A stretch of 64,000 nucleotides of DNA from Lachnospiraceae bacterium (lineage in GTDB: Bacteria > Bacillota > Clostridia > Lachnospirales > Lachnospiraceae), in the NCBI GenBank assembly GCA_910574715.1, contig CAJTCH010000004.1:116680-180679 (forward strand). The letters run 5' to 3'. The notes beneath the pieces were generated by a model, which was not told the origin of the DNA, made no database searches, and worked only from the letters and a program-made list of their open reading frames with translations. Below, one piece after another: positions 28,660 to 47,081 of the stretch. Within the stretch, counting starts at the first letter, position 1; the number at the start of each line of letters is the position of its first letter. The position numbers were made by a program, and so were the translations under genes.

Positions 28660-28688
28660 TTGACAGTGAGATAAAATGAAACTATAAT
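28660..28688 (+). promoter_or_regulatory. consensus promoter of the importer operon
   Basis: TTGACA (28660-28665), exactly 17 bases, TATAAT (28683-28688). A perfect sigma-A promoter implies that control is by repression. About 110 bases of leader follow before the first gene. Confidence 0.85.
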
Positions 28689-28797: not shown

Positions 28798-29577
28798 ATG
28801 AAAGAATTGATGCGTTTGCAGGGAATCTGTAAGGTCTTTGATAAGGGGCTTGACGAGCTAGTGTGCCTGGATGATATCAATCTGACTATTCTGGAAGGGG
28901 AATATGTCTGTATTCTGGGGCCTTCGGGATGCGGCAAATCAACTTTATTGAAAATTATAGGAGGAATTGAGAAACCGACGCTTGGCAGCATTGTCATGGA
29001 TGAAGAAGTTTTTGAAGACGGAATTCCCAAAAGCCATCTGAAGGATTTCGGATTTGTTTTTCAACAGCATAATCTGCTGGAATGGAGGACGGTACAGAAG
29101 AATCTGAGATTAAATCTGGAAATCTTCAGGCTTAAAGGCAGTGAATGGGAGAAAAGAGTTGAAGAGATGCTGGAAATCGTAGGACTTCAGGATTATGCCA
29201 ATATTTATCCGCATGAGCTGTCCGGGGGTATGAAGCAGAGGACAGGGATCGCAAGGGCGTTGGTGCATGATCCGAAGGTGCTTATTATGGACCAGCCGTT
29301 CGGAGCGTTGGATGCGATCACAAGAAATATGCTTTCTTATGAGATGCTGGATATCTGGAAGAAGACTCAGAAGACTATGATCATGGTCACGAACAGTGTA
29401 GAGGAGGCGCTGTTGGTGTCAAGCAGGATCCTGGTCATGAATAAAAAGGGTGAATTCATCAGCAAGATCGTAAATGACGTGCCGCTTAAGGCCCGGGATG
29501 AAAAGATCGCGTACAACGACAGATATAATGAACTGAGAAAAAAATTAGATGATATTGTTCATGAGATACAGGAATGA
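28798..29577 (+). CDS. ABC importer ATPase A, degenerate catalytic site
   Basis: 259 residues, of the nitrate/sulfonate/thiamine-precursor importer group (SsuB/TauB-like). Walker A GPSGCGKST (41-49), Q-loop FQQHNLLEW and signature LSGGM (141-145) are intact. The catalytic Glu after Walker B is Gln (IMDQPFGALDA, residue 166; codon cag) and the H-loop His is Asn (MVTNSVEEA, residue 199; codon aac). It should bind but barely hydrolyse ATP. With the second ATPase it probably forms a heterodimer whose other site is active. First gene of the operon. Confidence 0.9.
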   Translation: MKELMRLQGICKVFDKGLDELVCLDDINLTILEGEYVCILGPSGCGKSTLLKIIGGIEKPTLGSIVMDEEVFEDGIPKSHLKDFGFVFQQHNLLEWRTVQKNLRLNLEIFRLKGSEWEKRVEEMLEIVGLQDYANIYPHELSGGMKQRTGIARALVHDPKVLIMDQPFGALDAITRNMLSYEMLDIWKKTQKTMIMVTNSVEEALLVSSRILVMNKKGEFISKIVNDVPLKARDEKIAYNDRYNELRKKLDDIVHEIQE

Positions 29578-29596
29578 TTAGGAGGTGGCGCAGAAG

Positions 29597-30355
29597 ATGA
29601 AAGGAAATAAAAAATGGCTGAATATTGTCTCTCCTGTCATATTGCTTATTGTAATTCTGGTATGTTGGGAGCTGTATGTTGCGGTAAGCGGTATTGACGC
29701 CCGGATCCTGCCTGCTCCCCATGTGATTCTAAGCAAGCTTGGGGAAAGGTTCATGAGGGATCTTTCGGGGGATTTTCTCTATACGATTCAGGTCATATTG
29801 ATCGGGTACTGTATCTCCATTCCAAGCGGGATCCTGCTTGCTGCATTGTGTTCACAGTCGAAGCTGGTGACGAAGGCGATCACGCCTGTGTTGATTCTGA
29901 TGGTGGTGATTCCGATGCTGACATTGGTGCCGATCCTTCAGCTATGGTACGGATATGTTATGAAGGTGCGGATTATTGTGGTGATCTGTCAGGCGGTCCC
30001 CATTATATGTCTGAACACTTTGAGGGGCTTCACAAAGGTTGAGACGGCGAAGCGGGAGTTGTTCCGCTCAATGGGTGCAGGACGGTTTAAGACATTTGTG
30101 AAGCTGATTTTCCCGAATGCACTGCCGCAGGTTTTTGTCGGTTTGAAGCTTGGATGTATATTCTCTACGATAGCTGCGATGAGCGCTGACCTTGCGGCAA
30201 GCAACGAAGGGCTGGGGAGCAGGATCTCTGTCTATTCCGGCATGCTTATGACGGATATGGCATACGGGACCATTATCGTCGTGGCGCTGATTGGTATCGT
30301 GTTGTTTATGATCGTGGCATATATAGAGAAAAAAGTTGTGATATGGATTAAATAG
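29597..30355 (+). CDS. ABC importer permease A (TauC/SsuC-like)
   Basis: 252 residues from ATG 29597, with GGAGG at 29581-29585; a GTG at 29585 would overlap its own SD. About six membrane helices with the EAA-type loop in ELFRSMGAGRFKTFVKLIFP (about residue 150). Belongs to the BPD_transp_1 family of nitrate/taurine-type importers. Lies 19 bases after ATPase A and 15 bases before ATPase B. Confidence 0.87.
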   Translation: MKGNKKWLNIVSPVILLIVILVCWELYVAVSGIDARILPAPHVILSKLGERFMRDLSGDFLYTIQVILIGYCISIPSGILLAALCSQSKLVTKAITPVLILMVVIPMLTLVPILQLWYGYVMKVRIIVVICQAVPIICLNTLRGFTKVETAKRELFRSMGAGRFKTFVKLIFPNALPQVFVGLKLGCIFSTIAAMSADLAASNEGLGSRISVYSGMLMTDMAYGTIIVVALIGIVLFMIVAYIEKKVVIWIK

Positions 30356-30370
30356 TGGAAGGGTGAGAGC

Positions 30371-31171
30371 ATGAAGGCTTCAAAGATCAGGACGGAAAAC
30401 TTGAATAAAGTTTTTCATACCAGGCATCAGGATATATACGCGGTGAAGGATGCCAATATAGACATAAGAGTAGGAGAATTCGTATCTCTGATCGGACCGA
30501 GCGGATGCGGAAAGTCTACGATCATACGCATGATAGATGATATTATCAAGCCGACATCGGGCAGTATCTACATAGATGGAAAGGAGATCACTTCTTATAA
30601 GAGAATTCCGAAGGAGATCAATCAGAAGATGGGATTTATCTTTCAGTTGCCCAATCTGTTCCCGTGGCTGACGGTAAGGGAGAATGTCGGGATCGCATGC
30701 AGAATATATAAGATTCGGGATGAGAGAACGCAGAGGTATATAGATGAACTGCTCGAGATGGCCGGGCTTACGGAATATCAGAATGCATATCCGGCAGAGA
30801 TCTCGGGAGGAGTCATGCAGAGAATAGGAGTGATCCGTGCAATGGTCCACAAACCGGAGATATTGCTGATGGATGAGCCGTTCGGCGCGTTGGATGCCAT
30901 GACGCGGGAGAAGCTGGATATGGAGATACTGGATATCTGGAAGAAGTTAGGAACGACGGTGATTTTCATCACCCATAATGTCGAAGAGGCAGTTCTTTTG
31001 TCAGACAGGGTCTATGTGATGGGGACGAATCCGGGAAGGATCACCAGAGAGATTACTTTGGATCTGGAGAGGCCAAGATCGCTTGATCTGCTCACAGAGC
31101 GGAAGTTTCAGGATTACTGTGCGGAATTGACAGAATGTATCGGACATGTGGATCTTAGGAAGGTCAAGTAA
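30371..31171 (+). CDS. ABC importer ATPase B, catalytically intact
   Basis: 266 residues. Walker A GPSGCGKST (42-50), Q-loop FQLPNLFPWL, Walker B LLMDEP with catalytic Glu (169) and H-loop His (ITHNVEEA, 202) are all present. The signature is altered to ISGGV (144-148). This is the complementary pattern to ATPase A: in a head-to-tail dimer the site built from A's Walker motifs and B's signature would be degenerate, and the other would be competent. Fifteen bases after permease A. Confidence 0.9.
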   Translation: MKASKIRTENLNKVFHTRHQDIYAVKDANIDIRVGEFVSLIGPSGCGKSTIIRMIDDIIKPTSGSIYIDGKEITSYKRIPKEINQKMGFIFQLPNLFPWLTVRENVGIACRIYKIRDERTQRYIDELLEMAGLTEYQNAYPAEISGGVMQRIGVIRAMVHKPEILLMDEPFGALDAMTREKLDMEILDIWKKLGTTVIFITHNVEEAVLLSDRVYVMGTNPGRITREITLDLERPRSLDLLTERKFQDYCAELTECIGHVDLRKVK

Positions 31172-31185
31172 AGGGGGAGAATGGA

Positions 31186-31995
31186 ATGAGCCGGATGCTG
31201 GATGAGACGAAAGAGAAAAGAATAATTGAGAGAAGACGGAAGAACCGGATATCTAAGATCTCTTCTGTTGCGATGCCGATATTGGGTATCGTGATGTTGT
31301 TCCTTATCTGGGAGCTGTGGGTTATTCTGGGGGATTTCCCTGCCTGGCAGATATCAAGGCCGTCTTTGATCATACGGTCTATGTTGGAAGATTTCGAATT
31401 GTATTGGCCGAATATCGTGAGAACGTTCACGTCAATATTGACGGGATGGGTCGCTGCATGTTTGATCGGAGTAGTCATGGGTGCGCTTATGGCAAACTAT
31501 GCGCTGCTTGGAACAACGCTTACGCCGTATATTAATCTGCTGTGTACGCTGCCGGTCATCACGTTGGTGCCGATGATGTATGTGTTTATGGGAATCGGGA
31601 GGGATGTCATTATCATAGCGATCATACTGCAGTCCTTTGCTATTGTGACGATGAATTCCTCGACTGGTTTCATGAATGTCCCGGTAATGCGAATCGAGCT
31701 TATGACATCTCTGCGGGCGACGAAGAGACAGACTTTTTTTCAGTGCATGTTTCCGTCGGCGATCAATAACGTATTTACCGGAATGAAGTTATCGGCGATA
31801 TTTGCAACTACGACGTGCGTGGCGGCTGAGGTCAACGGGAGTACGGTAGGACTCGGGGCTCTCGTGATCGAGGCAAAGACCTACGTCAGGACGGATCAGA
31901 TGTTTGGTTCTATTCTTTTTATTGCGATCATAGGCGTGTTCTTCTACATGCTTTCGGATGCGCTGGAGGCTGTGCTTGTCAAATGGAAAGAATAG
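31186..31995 (+). CDS. ABC importer permease B (TauC/SsuC-like)
   Basis: 269 residues with a basic N-terminus (KRIIERRRKNR), about six membrane helices, and the coupling loop MTSLRATKRQTFFQCMFP (about residue 172). Paralogous to permease A but clearly divergent, so the transporter core is probably heterotetrameric: two different permeases plus two different ATPases. Fourteen bases after ATPase B. Confidence 0.87.
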   Translation: MSRMLDETKEKRIIERRRKNRISKISSVAMPILGIVMLFLIWELWVILGDFPAWQISRPSLIIRSMLEDFELYWPNIVRTFTSILTGWVAACLIGVVMGALMANYALLGTTLTPYINLLCTLPVITLVPMMYVFMGIGRDVIIIAIILQSFAIVTMNSSTGFMNVPVMRIELMTSLRATKRQTFFQCMFPSAINNVFTGMKLSAIFATTTCVAAEVNGSTVGLGALVIEAKTYVRTDQMFGSILFIAIIGVFFYMLSDALEAVLVKWKE

Positions 31996-32043: not shown

Positions 32044-33201
32044 ATGAAGAAACGTATGGTGGCGTTATTGACGGCAGCGGCAATGCTCGTGGCTTTGGGA
32101 GGTTGTTCCTCGTCTTCCCAATCAGAGAAGGACGGTGCAGGCAAACCAGAAGAAAAGAAGGAAGAAGCAGGAGGCGCGGAAGATACAGGGGAGCTTCAGA
32201 CGGTGAAGGTTGTTATGCCAAGAGATATCGAATGTCTGGATGATATGGCGATGTGGATCGGGGATTCGCAGGGGTATTTCGAGGAGCAGGGATTGAAGTT
32301 GGAGATGATCTCAGGTTCCAATCCTTCTGATATCCAGATGGTATCGACCGGACAGGCAGACCTGGCGTGCCCGTCGCCGAATGTAACGATGGCGCAGATT
32401 GAAGCGGGAGTACCTGTCAAGATTGTTTCGGGATATGACGCGATCAATATTTATGGATTTTCCGCAGTAAACGGTAAGGGGATCGATACATGGGAAGACC
32501 TTAAGGGTAAGACGATCGCTCTGGGCGACGCTTCCTGGGAATCTATTGCGGCTCCGACACTGATTGCGGCAGGCCTGGATCCAGAAAAAGATGTGGAGTA
32601 CGTGGTGAACGGTGATTCCCGTTATCAGATGGTATCAGAGGGACAGGTGGACGTACTGTTTACATGGATATCGGAGTATGAACAGCTAAAAGGCATGGGC
32701 TATGATTTCAACTATCTTGACGGAAGTGAGATTCTGGAAGTGTTCGGTGCATCCTGGGTTGCGGGAACAGATTTCTTTGATGAGAAGGGAGAGACGCTTC
32801 AGAAGTTCTTATATGCACTTCAGAAGTCTATCTATTTCATGTATCTGAATCCTGAGGCAGCGGCAGATATCACATGTAATCAGTTCCCGGAGATCGAGGT
32901 AGAATGGGACGGCGCTCTGGGATGCGCAAACGGACGTGTCGGACAGGCTTTGGGCGTAGAAGGAAGCTTGGAAGAGTATTTTATTGACGAGGTCGGCGTT
33001 GGGTATATGTCGGACGAGGCATGGAACACAGTCATTGATAATGCGGTCAAGGCGGGTGTTATCAAGGAGAAGCTTAAGGTGGAAGACTGTTATTCAGATG
33101 AATTGCTTCCAGAATTGCTAAGTGATGAGGACAAGGCGGACGCCAAGGTAGACGCAGAGGCTTACCAATGTACGTCCAAGGTGTATGAGTCGGCGCATTA
33201 A
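32044..33201 (+). CDS. ABC importer solute-binding lipoprotein (NMT1/TauA-like)
   Basis: 385 residues. Lipoprotein signal peptide ends in lipobox LGGC (about residue 21), then a charged Lys/Glu linker. The NMT1/TauA-type fold follows: MPRDIECLDDMAMWIGDSQG, STGQADLACPSPNVTMAQIE, LKGKTIALGD. Tethered outside the membrane, it delivers substrate to the two-permease importer. Ligands of this fold are usually small anionic or heterocyclic compounds, although the operon's enzymes look like sugar or polyol enzymes. The SD is ggagtgaaagg before ATG 32044. Confidence 0.88.
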   Translation: MKKRMVALLTAAAMLVALGGCSSSSQSEKDGAGKPEEKKEEAGGAEDTGELQTVKVVMPRDIECLDDMAMWIGDSQGYFEEQGLKLEMISGSNPSDIQMVSTGQADLACPSPNVTMAQIEAGVPVKIVSGYDAINIYGFSAVNGKGIDTWEDLKGKTIALGDASWESIAAPTLIAAGLDPEKDVEYVVNGDSRYQMVSEGQVDVLFTWISEYEQLKGMGYDFNYLDGSEILEVFGASWVAGTDFFDEKGETLQKFLYALQKSIYFMYLNPEAAADITCNQFPEIEVEWDGALGCANGRVGQALGVEGSLEEYFIDEVGVGYMSDEAWNTVIDNAVKAGVIKEKLKVEDCYSDELLPELLSDEDKADAKVDAEAYQCTSKVYESAH

Positions 33202-33300: not shown

Positions 33301-34104
33301 ATGAAGTGGATAAAAGAAGTATTTAAAACAGAGAAGCCCATTGTTGCGATGTGCCATCTCCAGGCATTGCCGGGAGATCCGGCGTACGACGCGAAAGGCG
33401 GAATGGCAAAAATCGTTGAGATGGCACGGCAGGATTTCCTGGCGCTGCAGGAAGGCGGAGTGGATGCGGTAATGTTTTCGAACGAATTCAGCCTGCCGTA
33501 CCTTAAGAAGGTCAAACCGGAGACGACGGCTGCAATGGCAAGAGTTATCGGAGAATTAAAATCTGAGATCAGGATTCCGTACGGCGTCAATGTTCTGTGG
33601 GATCCGTATGCGTCGCTTGATTTGGCTGCGGCGGTTAACGCCAAGTTTATCAGGGAGATCATGAGCGGAGTATATGCGAGCGATTTTGGGCTGTGGGATA
33701 CAGATACCGGTGACATTTACCGGCATAAAAAGGCATTGGAGCTGGATGATGTAAAGATGCTGTTCAATATTGTCCCGGAGTCTGCAAGGTACTTAGTGGA
33801 AAGGCCGATTGAAGAGATCGCGATGACAACTGTATTTAACAATAAACCGGATGTTATCTGCGTATCAGGGACGAATGCGGGAGCGGCTACAGATGTGAAT
33901 GTACTGAAGAAGGTTAAGGATGCTCTTGCGGACACGGCAGTATTCGCCAATACCGGATGCAGAGAAGAGACGATCGAAGATATCCTTAAAATTGCCGACG
34001 GAGCGGTTGTGGGGACGACATTTAAGAAGGACGGCAGATTCGAAAACCAGGTCGATCAGGAGAGAGTCCTGCGGTTTATGGAACGGGTCGAGAGATCAAG
34101 ATAA
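33301..34104 (+). CDS. BtpA/SgcQ family protein
   Basis: 267 residues with the BtpA family pattern: MCHLQALPGDPAYD at the N-terminus, EGGVDAVMFSNEF, IPYGVNVLWDPYASLDLA, FIREIMSGVYASDFGLWDTD, and C-terminal DGAVVGTTFKKDG. Predicted TIM barrel resembling phosphate-binding aldolase or epimerase enzymes. E. coli SgcQ is the nearest named relative I recall. The reaction is unknown. Sits between the binding protein and an M42 enzyme, and SgcX of the sgc operon is also M42. Confidence 0.85.
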   Translation: MKWIKEVFKTEKPIVAMCHLQALPGDPAYDAKGGMAKIVEMARQDFLALQEGGVDAVMFSNEFSLPYLKKVKPETTAAMARVIGELKSEIRIPYGVNVLWDPYASLDLAAAVNAKFIREIMSGVYASDFGLWDTDTGDIYRHKKALELDDVKMLFNIVPESARYLVERPIEEIAMTTVFNNKPDVICVSGTNAGAATDVNVLKKVKDALADTAVFANTGCREETIEDILKIADGAVVGTTFKKDGRFENQVDQERVLRFMERVERSR

Positions 34105-34114
34105 GGAGAATGCC

Positions 34115-35206
34115 ATGATAGATGTAAAAGAAGTTTTGATGGAGTTCATGCGTACACCGGCGCCGGCAGGCTATGAAAAAGAGATGTCCTATAAGATGAA
34201 AGGATATTTTGAGAGGTTCTGTGATGAGGTGTTCATTGATAATGTGGGAAATTGTATCGGGAAAATAGACGGAACAGATCCGAAGGCCCCGAAGATCATG
34301 TTCATTGGCCATATGGATTCGGTCGGACTTGTTATCAGGCATATTGATGAGGATGGATTTGCCGGGGTCAGCCGCTTGGGCGGAACGGAAGAGAAGGTTC
34401 TTGCCGGGTCAAAATTCCTTGTAAGAAGCGAGGACGGGCAGTGGTATCCTGCTTTGATTGGCCCCAAGGCGCATCATGTGACGCCGCCGGAAGAGAAGTA
34501 TGTGGTAGAGAATGTTAATCAGGTCTATCTTGATCTGGGAGCAGGATCGAAGAAGGAATTAGAAGAAAAGGGAATACATATCGGCTGCCCGGTGGTTTAT
34601 AAGCCGGAAGCGACAGAACTGATGGATGACAAAGTAACAGGTACGTCTGTGGATAACCGGGGAGCGTGCGCTGTCTTAGTGAAGATGGCGGAATTGCTGC
34701 ATCAAAACAGGCCCGTCTCCAGTGTCTATCTGGTCGGAACCGTATGGGAAGAATTCAATTTAAGAGGCGCGATCCTGGCGGCAAGGCATATTGCTCCTGA
34801 TATCTGTATATCCCTTGATGTTGCACTGGCAGGTGATACGCCGAATCTGAAGGGTGTCTTTGATGTGGAACTGGGGAAGGGGCCCTGTACGGAACTGCTT
34901 ACGTTCCACGGAAGGGGAACGCTGAACGGGGTGCTGCCCTGTGAAGGGCTGTTTCGGCTCGCGAAGGAGGTCTCCGGGGATATGGGGATATCGCTGCAAA
35001 GAACGGTTGCCTATGGTATGCTGATGGATTCCTCTTATGTTCAGTTAGAGGGAAAGGGCGTGGCGACTCTGGATATGGGATTCCCGGCAAGATATACACA
35101 TACGCCGGCGGAGGTATGCTGTGTACGGGATATTGAACAGTTGGCCGGCTTATGCAGCGGGATGGCCCAAAGAGTGAATGCGGATATGGAATTAAAACGC
35201 TTTTAA
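34115..35206 (+). CDS. M42-family metallo-aminopeptidase/deacylase (SgcX/FrvX-like)
   Basis: 363 residues from ATG 34115 (aaggag upstream). Two-metal ligands are all present: His66 in GHMDSVG, Asp180 in SVDNRGA, the Glu pair 212-213 in WEEFNLRGA, Asp235 in LDVALAGDTP, and His329 in RYTHTPAE. M42 proteins are classically aminopeptidases, but E. coli SgcX and FrvX sit in carbohydrate operons, where the substrate is unknown. Ten bases after the BtpA gene. A deacylase or amidase step on an imported conjugate would fit. Confidence 0.87.
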   Translation: MIDVKEVLMEFMRTPAPAGYEKEMSYKMKGYFERFCDEVFIDNVGNCIGKIDGTDPKAPKIMFIGHMDSVGLVIRHIDEDGFAGVSRLGGTEEKVLAGSKFLVRSEDGQWYPALIGPKAHHVTPPEEKYVVENVNQVYLDLGAGSKKELEEKGIHIGCPVVYKPEATELMDDKVTGTSVDNRGACAVLVKMAELLHQNRPVSSVYLVGTVWEEFNLRGAILAARHIAPDICISLDVALAGDTPNLKGVFDVELGKGPCTELLTFHGRGTLNGVLPCEGLFRLAKEVSGDMGISLQRTVAYGMLMDSSYVQLEGKGVATLDMGFPARYTHTPAEVCCVRDIEQLAGLCSGMAQRVNADMELKRF

Positions 35207-35234
35207 GTTGAAAAGGCCTATTGCGTGAGGTATA

Positions 35235-36755
35235 ATGATTATGAAAACAAGGTATTTTATGGGGATAGATATAGGGACATATGAGAGCAAGGGGGCTGTC
35301 ATAGACGAACGGGGTAAGGTCATTATGACTTACTCCTGTCCGCATGTTATGGAGACGCCGAAGCCGGGATATGCTGAACATGATGCCGAGGCAACCTGGT
35401 GGAAGGATTTTTGTGAGATCAGCAGGAAGCTGATTGAGGATTCGGGTATAGAACCGGAGGAAATCGAGGCGGTTGGATGCAGTACGATCGCTCCCTGTTG
35501 TCTGCCGGTGGATGAGAAGCTGCGCCCTCTAAGGAAAGCGATCCTGTACGGAGTGGACGTCCGGGTCGGAGAAGAGATCGAATATCTGGAGAATACTTTT
35601 GGAAAGGAAGAACTGTTCCAAAAGTGCGGAACGCCGATCACGTCTCAGTCAGCCGGTGCGAAATTACTCTGGATAAAGAACCATGAACCGGATATCTATG
35701 CGAAGACATATAAATTTATTACAGGAAGTACCTACTTAACAGCGAAACTGACCGGTGAATTTGTGATAGACCGTTATACGGCAGCATGCTGGACGCCGAT
35801 GTACAACATCGGGAAGCAGGATTGGGAAGAAGACCTGTCGCTGTTTTGCCGCCGGGATCAGTTGGCGGAATGCAGATGGTCGGATGAAGTGATCGGAACC
35901 GTAACGCCTGCTGCGGCTGCCGAGACCGGGCTTAGTGTTCATACGAAGGTGATTACGGGAACGGCTGACGCGTCTGCGGAAGCTTTCAGCGTGGGCGTAA
36001 TGAAACCGGGCGATATGATGGTTATGTATGGTTCTTCCATATTTATTATTCATGTGGTGGAAAATTTTACCAAAGACAGAAGATTATGGGCGGGACCTTA
36101 TCTGTTCCCGGGCACATATTCTATGGCGGCGGGAATGTCAACTTCGGGGACGCTTACCAGATGGTATAAAGAGCAGTTCGCAAGAGACGTGGCGGCAGAG
36201 GCAGAAGAGCGCGGGCAGAATGCTTATGAGGAGTTGGCGAAGAGAGCAGAGGATATTCCGGCAGGATCAAAGGGAGTGATCGTTCTGCCCTATTTCTCAG
36301 GAGAACGGACTCCGATCAATGATGTGAAGGCAAAGGGAGTGATATTCGGCCTGAATGTCCTTCATACAAGGGAACATATTTACCAGGCATGCCTGGAAGG
36401 GATCGGATACGGAATAGCGCAGCATTTTGATGTGTTTGAAGAGCGGAAGATAGAGACAAAGAAGGTAATGGCAGTAGGCGGCGGCACGAAAAATGAGAAA
36501 TGGATCCAGATCGTATCGGATATCTGCGGCAGAGAACAGAAGGAAGCAGAAGAAACGATCGGGGCGGCATACGGAGACGCGCTGCTTGCCGCACTGAGCG
36601 TGAAGGTTTTTCGGACTCCCGATGAAGTGAATGAGATTATCAAGATACGAAAAGCTGTGAAACCAGATATGGAAAATCATGAATTATACCGTCCGTTAAA
36701 GGAGAAATACACGGATCTGTATCTGGCGACGAGAGAGATTATGCACCGGGACTGA
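35235..36755 (+). CDS. FGGY-family carbohydrate kinase
   Basis: 506 residues, full length. N-terminal phosphate loop MGIDIGTYESKGAVID, substrate-domain QSAGAKLLWIK, and the catalytic Asp in ITGTADASAEAFSVG, with C-terminal VMAVGGGTKNEKWIQIVSD ATP-binding region. Family members phosphorylate ketoses or polyols (xylulose, ribulose, glycerol, erythritol, autoinducer-2). An alternative start is ATG 35241; both have the weak SD gtgagg. Last enzyme of the operon. Likely traps the imported or SDR-oxidised substrate. Confidence 0.9.
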   Translation: MIMKTRYFMGIDIGTYESKGAVIDERGKVIMTYSCPHVMETPKPGYAEHDAEATWWKDFCEISRKLIEDSGIEPEEIEAVGCSTIAPCCLPVDEKLRPLRKAILYGVDVRVGEEIEYLENTFGKEELFQKCGTPITSQSAGAKLLWIKNHEPDIYAKTYKFITGSTYLTAKLTGEFVIDRYTAACWTPMYNIGKQDWEEDLSLFCRRDQLAECRWSDEVIGTVTPAAAAETGLSVHTKVITGTADASAEAFSVGVMKPGDMMVMYGSSIFIIHVVENFTKDRRLWAGPYLFPGTYSMAAGMSTSGTLTRWYKEQFARDVAAEAEERGQNAYEELAKRAEDIPAGSKGVIVLPYFSGERTPINDVKAKGVIFGLNVLHTREHIYQACLEGIGYGIAQHFDVFEERKIETKKVMAVGGGTKNEKWIQIVSDICGREQKEAEETIGAAYGDALLAALSVKVFRTPDEVNEIIKIRKAVKPDMENHELYRPLKEKYTDLYLATREIMHRD

Positions 36756-36788: not shown

Positions 36789-37559
36789 ATGATCAGAAAT
36801 GAGAGACTGGAATGTATTGAGCGGTATGTGATGGAGCACAAATATGCTTCCACAGAAGAATTAATGAAAGCGCTGAATGTATCTAAAGCGACTGTGCGCA
36901 GAGATCTGTCATTATTGTCTGACAGCGACAATCTGAAGATCGTCCGCGGCGGAGTTATGCAGCGCAATACGGAAAGTACGAAATATGAGCCGTCCTATGA
37001 TGAGAAGATTATGATAAATGAAGACGAGAAAAGACGGATTGCAAAGCGGGCGAGCGAGCTGATCTCGGAAGGTACAACGATCGTGCTGGACTCCGGCACA
37101 ACGATCCTGCATCTGACCGAAGAGATGAATCGATTTAAACAGCTTGTCGTTGCGACGTGTGATGTCCGAAATGCTGTCTCGCTGGCAAAATGCGACGACC
37201 TGGATGTTATGATGATCGGCGGGGGAATGATCAGGGGCGGATTTTTTACGGTGATCGGCAGTATGGTGGAGAAGATGATCAGGGATTTGAATTTCAATCA
37301 GGCATTCATATCCTGTGATGCGGTGAATATAAAAAACGGCGTCATGATCACGAATTTTGATGAGGTTCAGATTAAGCAGTCTATGATCGCGTCATCCCAT
37401 GAAGTGATTCTTCTTGTAGATCACGGCAAGATCGAGTCGGTATCCTTCGGTTCATTTGCAAGCCTTGACCAGATCGACAAGATCATTACAGGGGTAGAAC
37501 TGCCGGATGAAACATACAACAAATTCATAAGCCTGGGGATCGATATAGAGCGCGTATAA
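36789..37559 (+). CDS. DeoR-family transcriptional regulator
   Basis: 256 residues. N-terminal winged HTH (ASTEELMKALNVSKATVRRD) and the DeoR sugar-phosphate sensor domain with DSGTTILHLTEEM and MIGGGMIRGGFFTVIG. DeoR repressors are released by a phosphorylated sugar intermediate, consistent with the FGGY kinase upstream. Probably represses the perfect consensus promoter at 28660 (inference). SD agaggga before ATG 36789. Confidence 0.92.
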   Translation: MIRNERLECIERYVMEHKYASTEELMKALNVSKATVRRDLSLLSDSDNLKIVRGGVMQRNTESTKYEPSYDEKIMINEDEKRRIAKRASELISEGTTIVLDSGTTILHLTEEMNRFKQLVVATCDVRNAVSLAKCDDLDVMMIGGGMIRGGFFTVIGSMVEKMIRDLNFNQAFISCDAVNIKNGVMITNFDEVQIKQSMIASSHEVILLVDHGKIESVSFGSFASLDQIDKIITGVELPDETYNKFISLGIDIERV

Positions 37560-37593: not shown

Positions 37594-37640
37594 AGCTTAA
37601 GCACATAAGAAGCTAAGTGTACCTTAAAGGAGAAGAGAAG

Positions 37641-38318
37641 ATGCTTGGAGAAAAACGAGGAAGAAAGCTTGATAAATATATGCCGGATTACGTGGTCTTC
37701 GACCTGGAGACGACCGGGACGAATTCTAACAGCGACGCAGTCATAGAGATCTCGGCGGTCAAGGTGAAGAAGGGCAGGGTCGAGGATGAATTCTCGACTC
37801 TGGTCAACCCCGAATGCCCGATTCCGTTCTATGCGTCGCAGGTCAATAACATCTACGACAGCATGGTGAAGGATGCGCCGGTGTTCAGGGATGCGTTGGC
37901 GAAGTTCAATGAATTCATCGGCGGCATGGTCCTGGTGGGACATAACATACACACGTTTGATATGAAGTTTATCTGGCGGGACGCAGAAAATTATTGGGGG
38001 AAGACGATCGCGAATGACTACATAGATACGCTGACGCTTGCCAGGCAGTGTCTTTGGCAGTTGTCCCATTATAAGCTGGTGGATCTGGCGTCCCATTATC
38101 ACATATCAGCAGACGGAGCGCACCGTGCGCTTGCGGACTGCCGTATGAATCAGAAGGTGTTCGAGATGCTGGGGAAGGAACTGGAATCTCCGGCGGTGAA
38201 GGCGAATACGAGAACTTGTCCGAAGTGCGGGCAGTTCCTTAAGAAGCGCAGCGGGAAGTTCGGTGAGTTCTGGGGCTGTAGCGGGTATCCGGCATGCAGA
38301 TACACAGAGAATATATGA
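37641..38318 (+). CDS. DEDDh 3'-5' exonuclease with C-terminal topoisomerase-type zinc finger
   Basis: 225 residues from ATG 37641 (ggagaagagaag upstream). Exonuclease residues are VFDLETTGT (two acidic ligands), HNIHTFDMKF (Asp) and HRALADC (His and Asp), the DnaQ/PolC-like epsilon pattern. The last 40 residues, CPKCGQFLKKRSGKFGEFWG then CSGYPACRY, form a four-Cys zinc finger of the topoisomerase I type. The fusion suggests single-stranded DNA binding with trimming. Monocistronic. Confidence 0.88.
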   Translation: MLGEKRGRKLDKYMPDYVVFDLETTGTNSNSDAVIEISAVKVKKGRVEDEFSTLVNPECPIPFYASQVNNIYDSMVKDAPVFRDALAKFNEFIGGMVLVGHNIHTFDMKFIWRDAENYWGKTIANDYIDTLTLARQCLWQLSHYKLVDLASHYHISADGAHRALADCRMNQKVFEMLGKELESPAVKANTRTCPKCGQFLKKRSGKFGEFWGCSGYPACRYTENI

Positions 38319-45537: not shown

Positions 45538-45653
45538 GATACCTGCATGGCAAAATTATCCGTTTCTGACGGTCTGCCCTTGCTTTTAGCAGCCTTTTTT
45601 GGTACATTAACAGTAGGGAATGATTAGGGAAAGGACTGTTAAAGGGATTGTCT

Positions 45654-47081
45654 ATGATAGTAGAAGTAATTAGCAGTAATAAGGAACTGGAGAATGTAAG
45701 GCCGTTTCATGTGGAGCATCTGCTGTGGGGAACGAAGGCTATTCCAAGGACGTACGGATATCTGGGTTTTGTTCCGGATGAAGGGTTCTATCTGAAGATG
45801 GTATGTGAGGAGAGTGAACCGCTCCGCACATATGAGAATTTTCTGGACCCTGTTTACAGGGACAGTGCAATGGAAGCATTTCTCCAATTTGAACCTCAGA
45901 GAGGCGGACGTGAGACGGCGGTTTATCTTAATTTTGAGGCGAATGCGAACGGCGCGCTGTTGGCGGCGTATGGCAGCGGGCGTACATACAGGACCTATTT
46001 TTCCAAAGAAGAGTTGGACCTGTTTGGCTGCACGGCGGCGATAGAGGAGGATCATTGGAGTTTTTCGATTTTTATTCCGATTCAGGTGCTGGAGAATGTC
46101 TATGGATCTCTGAATCTTGGGATAGGAAGCAGATTCACCTGCAATTTTTATAAGATATCAGAGTCGAAGGCTATTGAGCATTATGCATCCTGTTTCCCGA
46201 TCCGGTCAGAGATTCCAAGCTTCCACATGCCGGAATATTTCGGCGAGGCAAGGATCGGCGAGCACAAGGATGCGGACGCACATTTATTATATTCCCCTTA
46301 TGCAGGGGTGGATATAAAACAAAGAAAGGATAATCAGGAGGGTATATTCATGAAGATCTACAAAGCAGCAGATTACAAGGAGATGAGCAGAAAGGCGGCG
46401 AATATTATCGCGTCACAGGTGATCTTGAAGCCGGATTGCGTACTGGGACTGGCGACGGGATCTACACCGATCGGAACTTATGAGAGGTTGGTTTCTCTGT
46501 ATAAGGAGGGGAATCTGGACTTTTCCAATGTGAAGACGGTGAATCTGGACGAGTACAAGGGACTTCCCCGTACCAATGACCAGAGCTATTATTACTTCAT
46601 GCATGAGAACCTGTTTGACAAGGTGAATATTGATCCGGCTAACACGAACCTCCCGGATGGAATGGAACCGGACAGCGACAAGGAGTGTGCGAGATATGAG
46701 GAACTGATCGAGTCTCTTGGCGGGGTGGATCTGCAGCTTCTGGGTCTTGGCCATAACGGGCATATCGGATTCAATGAGCCGGCAGATGCGTTTGATAAGG
46801 TGACGCACTGTGTAGATCTGCAGGAGAGTACGATCGAGGCGAATAAGAGGTTTTTCGCTTCGGCAGATGATGTTCCGAAGCAGGCGTATACCATGGGGAT
46901 CGGGACGATCATGCGTGCGAAGAAGGTGTTGCTTGTTGTCAGCGGAGAGGACAAGGCGGATATTGTGGCGAAGGCGTTCTTTGGGCCTGTGACTCCGGCG
47001 GTTCCGGCTTCGATCCTTCAGATGCATGGAGATGTAACATTGGTAGCGGACGCGGCGGCGTTATCTAAGATCCCTCAGTAA
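45654..47081 (+). CDS. nagB: CBM9-like protein fused in frame to glucosamine-6-phosphate deaminase
   Basis: 475 residues from ATG 45654. Residues about 1-215 are a carbohydrate-binding family 9-like domain (FHVEHLLWGTKAIPRTYGYL, YLNFEANANGALLA, FTCNFYKI). Residues 233-475 are a complete NagB: LGLATGSTPIGTYE, NLDEYKGLP with catalytic Asp, LGLGHNGHIGFNEP. NagB converts GlcN-6-P to Fru-6-P and ammonia. A perfect SD (CAGGAGGG) precedes the internal ATG at 46350, so NagB can also start there. The linker reads like untranslated sequence that happens to be open. Loss of the first stop codon is likely. Confidence 0.85.
   Translation: MIVEVISSNKELENVRPFHVEHLLWGTKAIPRTYGYLGFVPDEGFYLKMVCEESEPLRTYENFLDPVYRDSAMEAFLQFEPQRGGRETAVYLNFEANANGALLAAYGSGRTYRTYFSKEELDLFGCTAAIEEDHWSFSIFIPIQVLENVYGSLNLGIGSRFTCNFYKISESKAIEHYASCFPIRSEIPSFHMPEYFGEARIGEHKDADAHLLYSPYAGVDIKQRKDNQEGIFMKIYKAADYKEMSRKAANIIASQVILKPDCVLGLATGSTPIGTYERLVSLYKEGNLDFSNVKTVNLDEYKGLPRTNDQSYYYFMHENLFDKVNIDPANTNLPDGMEPDSDKECARYEELIESLGGVDLQLLGLGHNGHIGFNEPADAFDKVTHCVDLQESTIEANKRFFASADDVPKQAYTMGIGTIMRAKKVLLVVSGEDKADIVAKAFFGPVTPAVPASILQMHGDVTLVADAAALSKIPQ

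Follow-up and report, generated by a model that had tools for sequence, protein, structure and literature searches.

A gene row for an importer with two ATPases

The window, a 64,000-nucleotide stretch of a Lachnospiraceae genome, carries a row of + strand genes in the order ATPase A, permease 1, ATPase B, permease 2, with intergenic gaps of 7, 15 and 14 nt, followed by a gene for a substrate-binding protein. The features of the row and its surroundings are:

28660..28688, + strand: sigma-70-type promoter-like site, 12/12 consensus matches, spacer 17, about 110 nt upstream of ATPase A
28798..29577, + strand: ATPase A, 259 aa, PF00005; its catalytic residues are substituted, with an intact Walker A and LSGGM
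29218..29232, + strand: LSGGM signature of A, expected to serve the ATP site of B; LSGGM in 6/6 orthologues
29293..29295, + strand: codon of Gln166 in ATPase A, replacing the catalytic Glu; invariant in 6 aligned A orthologues
29392..29394, + strand: codon of Asn199 in ATPase A, replacing the H-loop His; invariant in 6 aligned A orthologues
29585..30355, + strand: permease 1, BPD_transp_1 (PF00528), from its Pfam match and the permease tree
30371..31171, + strand: ATPase B, 266 aa, from its Pfam match; Glu169 and His202 intact, from the alignment
30800..30814, + strand: ISGGV signature of B, expected to serve the degenerate ATP site of A, from the alignment
31186..31995, + strand: permease 2, BPD_transp_1 (PF00528), from its Pfam match and the permease tree
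32044..33201, + strand: substrate-binding protein, NMT1/THI5 type (PF09084)
33301..34104, + strand: BtpA/SgcQ family protein (PF03437, TIGR00259)
34115..35206, + strand: M42 peptidase-like protein (PF05343), its start codon a choice inside a longer open frame
35235..36755, + strand: FGGY-type sugar kinase (PF00370, PF02782)
36789..37559, + strand: DeoR-type regulator (PF00455, PF08220)

A consensus scan of the region returned 16 promoter-like sites, with 15.2 expected from shuffles; the site at 28660-28688 is the sole 12/12 match, and an 11/12 match lies at 35208-35236, ahead of the FGGY kinase.

Two PF00528 permeases, one PF09084 binding protein and an ABC_tran ATPase nearest the NrtD/CmpD class place the row among type I importers of the NitT/TauT class. 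ATPase A has an ordinary NBD fold (AlphaFold2 model, mean pLDDT 90), and its top fold matches, CmpD and NrtD, are also the top matches in the PDB by sequence profile, making the cyanobacterial nitrate and bicarbonate importers NrtBCD and CmpBCD (8wm7, 8w9m, 9u9z, 9ua1) its nearest solved relatives. No named NCBIfam model (SaoA, nitrate NtrCD, taurine, sulfonate) reached its curated cut-off: A scored 216.7 against 360 for SaoA and 200.5 against 291.8 for ntrCD, and B 233 and 201.2 against the same two thresholds. Exporters of the TM287/288 type have the membrane domain fused to the NBD; the row, with its separate BPD_transp_1 permeases and its binding protein, falls outside that class.

The original prediction took a homodimer as the norm for importers of the SsuB/TauB type. 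Two-ATPase importers are nevertheless already known (NrtC/D, CmpC/D and, from PMC12136057, DppD/F).

Fixed losses in ATPase A

In the alignment, the window's ATPase A has Gln166 in place of the catalytic Glu, Asn199 in place of the H-loop His and the signature LSGGM. These residue calls and their coordinates had been predicted correctly, and the observation is now stronger than at first. Orthologues were retrieved by similarity, with neither Gln nor Asn as a search criterion, and the six distinct A sequences, which come from Lachnospiraceae and from a second phylum, presumably Synergistota, all share Gln, Asn, LSGGM and the Q-loop Gln. Relative to the window, identity is 69% in another Lachnospiraceae genome (L014), 55% in a Synergistaceae MAG (L015) and 44-46% in three further second-phylum genomes; the L052 and L053 copies are close to each other. 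An orthologous operon in which A retained Glu and His would have spoken against the asymmetry, and there was none among the six distinct orthologues (0/6). A near-identical operon is present in a sister species (L013), and this near-identical copy (L013, L056) is left out of the orthologue counts. A fourth locus from the A search, L016, was dropped at 24% identity.

The subunit is rare. It was found in 2/12 genomes of the genus; searches that scored, under strict thresholds, the top 6 or top 14 candidates in each genome found it in 2/397 genomes of the family, 1/398 of the phylum and 4/185 of the second phylum. A search of plasmids for A orthologues matched 1232 records, all below 60% identity and, among the matches listed, at most 43.2%. 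The DNA pattern for D-Q-P-x-G-A-L-D, which is blind to other D-loops such as the DAVD of L052 and L053, has a single match across 150 whole family genomes, and this is the ATPase A gene itself. Its Glu version, which picks up other ABC families as well, matches 122 sites (summed) in 21/21 genomes.

Compared with the sister species (L013), ATPase A has 2 non-synonymous and 12 synonymous changes, a dN/dS of 0.04 from 14 changes; the values for permease 1, B, permease 2 and the binding protein are 0, 0.11, 0.12 and 0.07. The conservation of A and its low dN/dS led us to reject a pseudogene as improbable.

Related ATPases are canonical at these positions. Glu, His and [LI]SGGM were read in 60/60 control rows, a set in which at least one place is counted twice and which comprises 21 matches to the NtrCD profile, 37 sequences from the B profile searches and two solved sequences, NrtD and CmpD, which belong to two-ATPase importers. 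The NtrCD profile gave 71 matches in 14 genomes, 13 of them holding two-ATPase pairs; by our own count 29 matches lie within such pairs and 42 outside, and the 42 divide into the 21 control rows and 21 that were read separately. The latter have Glu in 21/21 and His in 20/21, with one unreadable at the H-loop because of a stop, leaving 20/21 fully canonical. In the window's phylum, 29 matches to the B profile besides the window were read for controls. Close to four control loci (L085, L108, L109, L113) lies a further ABC ATPase, of a different type, and not all controls are demonstrably single-ATPase.

In all six A sequences, Walker A retains GxxGCGKS. The loss of its catalytic residues would also fit a regulatory or assembly subunit whose ATP site is empty and which serves B as a fixed scaffold. 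We consider this unlikely; Walker A and the Q-loop Gln are intact in 6/6 A sequences, as expected if ATP is still bound.

ATPase B and the predicted composite site

The window's ATPase B has Glu169, His202 and the signature ISGGV. Five partners of A orthologues could be read, as the L014 contig stops before B, and all five keep Glu and His; thus both the catalytic Glu and the H-loop His are changed in one NBD only (Gln and Asn in 6/6 A, Glu and His in 5/5 B). The partner signatures are ISGGV, ISGGM, LSGGM, LSQGM and LSRGM, so that a signature Gly is lost in 2/5 (LSQGM, LSRGM), while the window's ISGGV keeps S-G-G and one partner (L051) has an intact LSGGM. Searches with the B profile matched 115/398 genomes of the window's phylum, where only the window's B fell in the orthologue score range, and 10/185 genomes of the second phylum, where the four A-bearing genomes stand out from the six others.

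As had been proposed, the changes in A and B fall in one composite site, in which Gln166 and Asn199 of A would meet the drifting signature of B. Glu169 and His202 of B were likewise called correctly, and the asymmetry and the absence of decay are borne out by the 0/6 count, the dN/dS and the shared site. What fails is the idea that the losses are coordinated, with ISGGV as B's share. ISGGM is found in 4/60 control rows, including the solved NrtD and CmpD, and in 1/21 of the further rows; ISGG in canonical ATPases means that the window's signature change is by itself no evidence of loss, and ISGGV was discarded as a hallmark. Nor do the losses in A strictly co-vary with B's signature, given the intact LSGGM of the L051 partner. 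With ISGGV still S-G-G, it is chiefly the changes in A that make the site asymmetric. As read from the alignments, the losses in A are fixed, and the signature of B, which is predicted to complete A's site, drifts.

We think it probable that the two ATPases, the two permeases and the binding protein make up a single NitT/TauT-class type I importer, built on an A–B heterodimer with one idle ATP site. Two other arrangements were weighed against it. A could be a decaying pseudo-ATPase, with transport carried out by a B homodimer together with both permeases: A has lost two catalytic residues, and MalK-type homodimers serve hetero-permeases elsewhere. Such decay is improbable, more so than the scaffold: A has been retained in both phyla, its two substitutions unchanged and its LSGGM invariant, and has a dN/dS of 0.04 against the sister species. 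The signature that drifts, with a Gly lost in two of five partners, is that of B, on which both sites of a B homodimer would depend. The interleaved order, with a permease after each ATPase, might instead point to two tandem homodimeric transporters, one built from A and permease 1, slow but active, the other from B and permease 2. This we regard as very improbable: a single binding protein lies downstream, an A homodimer would have two sites lacking Glu and His, and the pattern of losses divides cleanly between the partners.

A second kind of two-ATPase importer

A search of 150 genomes of the family for the H-loop Asn gave 23 matches in 12 genomes. One of them is in the window, 14 belong to another two-ATPase importer, and the remaining 8 were dropped because they lack convincing ABC motifs. 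Together with one pair from another search, 15 pairs of this second kind were read, all in genomes of the family Lachnospiraceae (L054 and L057-L070; for example L060:6655-8236 and L070:6703-8246). Their first ATPase has in 15/15 cases the H-loop Asn, the catalytic Glu, LSGGM and an altered P-loop, which is GPGxCGKT in 14 and GAGQCGKT in 1. Their second ATPase has in 15/15 cases Glu, His and an LSxS-type signature (LSASM in 10, LSVSS in 2, and LSTSS, LSVSA and MSVSM). The losses again fall in one composite site, as in the window importer, in 15/15 pairs, of which 14 have the Asn by construction of the search; the partner signature was not selected for. LSGGM is kept in 21/21 A-type subunits of both kinds. 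The altered P-loop makes an empty site more plausible in the second kind than in the window importer.

The gene order differs as well. In two second-kind operons (L060, L070) the binding protein comes first, followed by two permeases and then two ATPases, unlike the ATPase-permease-ATPase-permease order of the window. The same change in distant relatives and a similar one in a separate group of pumps argue for a working design as opposed to decay.

Origin of the pairs

An ATPase tree of 51 rows was built after the motif columns had been taken out; it retains 8 of the 15 second-kind pairs, five near-duplicates having been dropped and six sequences added. A and B of the window kind (A1, B1) are sisters with support 92/92, and those of the second kind (A2, B2) are sisters with support 95/88. 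A branch with support 100/94 separates the two pairs, each of which lies together with canonical ATPases. The fuller quick tree, of 64 rows, again recovers A1 and B1 as sisters (98); A2 and B2 did not resolve as sisters there. In the permease tree, a quick one that carries a long-branch warning and in which permease 2 did not resolve as one clade, permeases 1 and 2 form a group (93) next to the L145 permease (87). Sister ATPases and grouped permeases are as expected from tandem duplication of an ATPase-permease module.

A single origin of the Asn subunits, with A1 and A2 held together, is disfavoured (AU p 0.022 with 64 rows and 0.041 with 51 rows), and forcing all four subunit groups into one clade is not rejected (AU p 0.073). 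The trees give moderate support to separate duplications for the two kinds of importer, and an independent origin would be the better reading of these sequences. At L145 one canonical ATPase is seen; we set this locus aside as a model of the single-module ancestor, since the contig ends just upstream of that ATPase and leaves room for a missing partner.

Comparison with known systems

NrtBCD and CmpBCD resemble the window importer in using two different ATPases within the NitT/TauT class, but the catalytic residues differ. NrtD (8wm7) and CmpD (9u9z) have Glu and His, unlike A. NrtC in 8w9m and the chains of NrtD and CmpD in the ATP complexes do have Gln, which is probably engineered in each, and all keep the H-loop His that A has lost. 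Our literature search turned up, among the matches listed, no paper on a degenerate site in the NitT/TauT importer class.

Importers with one degenerate ATP site have been described in Bacillus subtilis. According to PMC11466899, RbsA and NupO have a deviating signature and lack the lysine of the second Walker A, and NupO also lacks the acids of the second Walker B. These are type II importers with both NBDs in one chain and, in that paper's account, without the paired Glu-to-Gln and His-to-Asn changes of A. An importer with one degenerate site is thus not new as such, and the window's is a variant. The E. coli dipeptide importer DppABCDF also uses two different ATPases, but there the asymmetry lies in nucleotide occupancy and not in the residues: PMC12136057 describes the motifs for binding and hydrolysis as functional in DppD as well as in DppF, and reports that without the binding protein an ATP analogue was seen in DppF only.

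The window pair had been equated exactly with the asymmetry of TM287/288, and here the likeness is partial. In TM287/288 and other heterodimeric exporters the catalytic Glu is lost in one NBD and the signature of the partner deviates, both in one composite site (PMC7756269, PMC5216877). The window importer shares the loss of Glu in one NBD, and its partner signatures range from an intact LSGGM through ISGGV to LSQGM and LSRGM. Yet TM287/288 is an exporter, with a Walker B aspartate at its degenerate site where A has Gln (PMC5216877), and the window has separate genes for permeases and ATPases, with a binding protein. In degenerate-site exporters ATP stays at the degenerate site and holds the NBDs together, as PMC7756269 and PMC5216877 report; from these reports we infer that A's site holds ATP and that B's hydrolyses it.

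Proposed working and implications

For the asymmetric A–B importer the following course can be proposed. An ATPase-permease module would have been duplicated in tandem, after which A may have lost its catalytic Glu and H-loop His and the losses become fixed. A and B would assemble as a heterodimer with two unlike sites: one, formed by the Walker motifs of A with Gln166 and Asn199 and by the signature of B, would bind ATP and hydrolyse it poorly or not at all; the other, formed by the Walker motifs of B with Glu169 and His202 and by the constant LSGGM of A, would carry out hydrolysis. In each cycle, one ATP would be held as a clamp and one spent.

Looking across both kinds, we lean slightly towards the view that duplication of an ATPase and a permease, followed by the switching off of the same composite ATP site, has happened independently at least two times among type I importers, yielding natural 'one clamp, one stroke' importers. 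If so, there would be two routes to this state, Glu-to-Gln with His-to-Asn in the window, and His-to-Asn with an altered P-loop and an LSxS signature in the second kind, and these pumps would be an import-side counterpart of CFTR, TAP and TM287/288. ATPase A would then amount to nature's own form of the Glu-to-Gln trap used in the laboratory. It has long been asked whether an ABC importer must hydrolyse two ATPs in each cycle, and separate subunit genes with one naturally dead-looking site make the question addressable by comparing A–B with its canonical relatives. Independent origins in importers would also suggest that asymmetry is a general outcome of ABC subunit duplication and not a peculiarity of exporters. 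For annotators, the survey yields a motif rule by which such ATPase pairs can be recognised.

Neighbourhood and side observations

The nearest solved proteins to the binding protein (32044..33201) by sequence are 4nmy and 3ix1, a formyl-aminopyrimidine-binding protein. The genes next to the importer differ between genomes: BtpA, M42, FGGY kinase and DeoR genes in the window, transketolase and epimerase in L051, and, in the second phylum, RACo in L052 and a nitrilase-family protein in L053. With such differing neighbours no one substrate fits all, and none is assigned; the importer lineage seems to serve different pathways. The window's set at 33301-36755 (BtpA, M42, FGGY kinase) presumably recalls the E. 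coli sgc operon, and BtpA-like and M42-like genes were also seen by eye near the importer in L051.

The L052 and L053 copies of the importer also lie, by eye, near corrinoid methyltransferase-like genes. Upstream of the importer in L053 (7396-8901) is a gene for a 502-residue protein with no Pfam match, regulator-like by eye, and L052:7922-9415 encodes a similar protein. Elsewhere in the window, an RNase_T exonuclease domain is fused to a topoisomerase-type zinc ribbon at 37617-38318. A single open frame at 45648-47081 joins a CBM9_2 carbohydrate-binding domain to a glucosamine-6-phosphate isomerase domain, an odd combination for a cytoplasmic enzyme; the two may be truly fused or belong to separate genes that share the frame.
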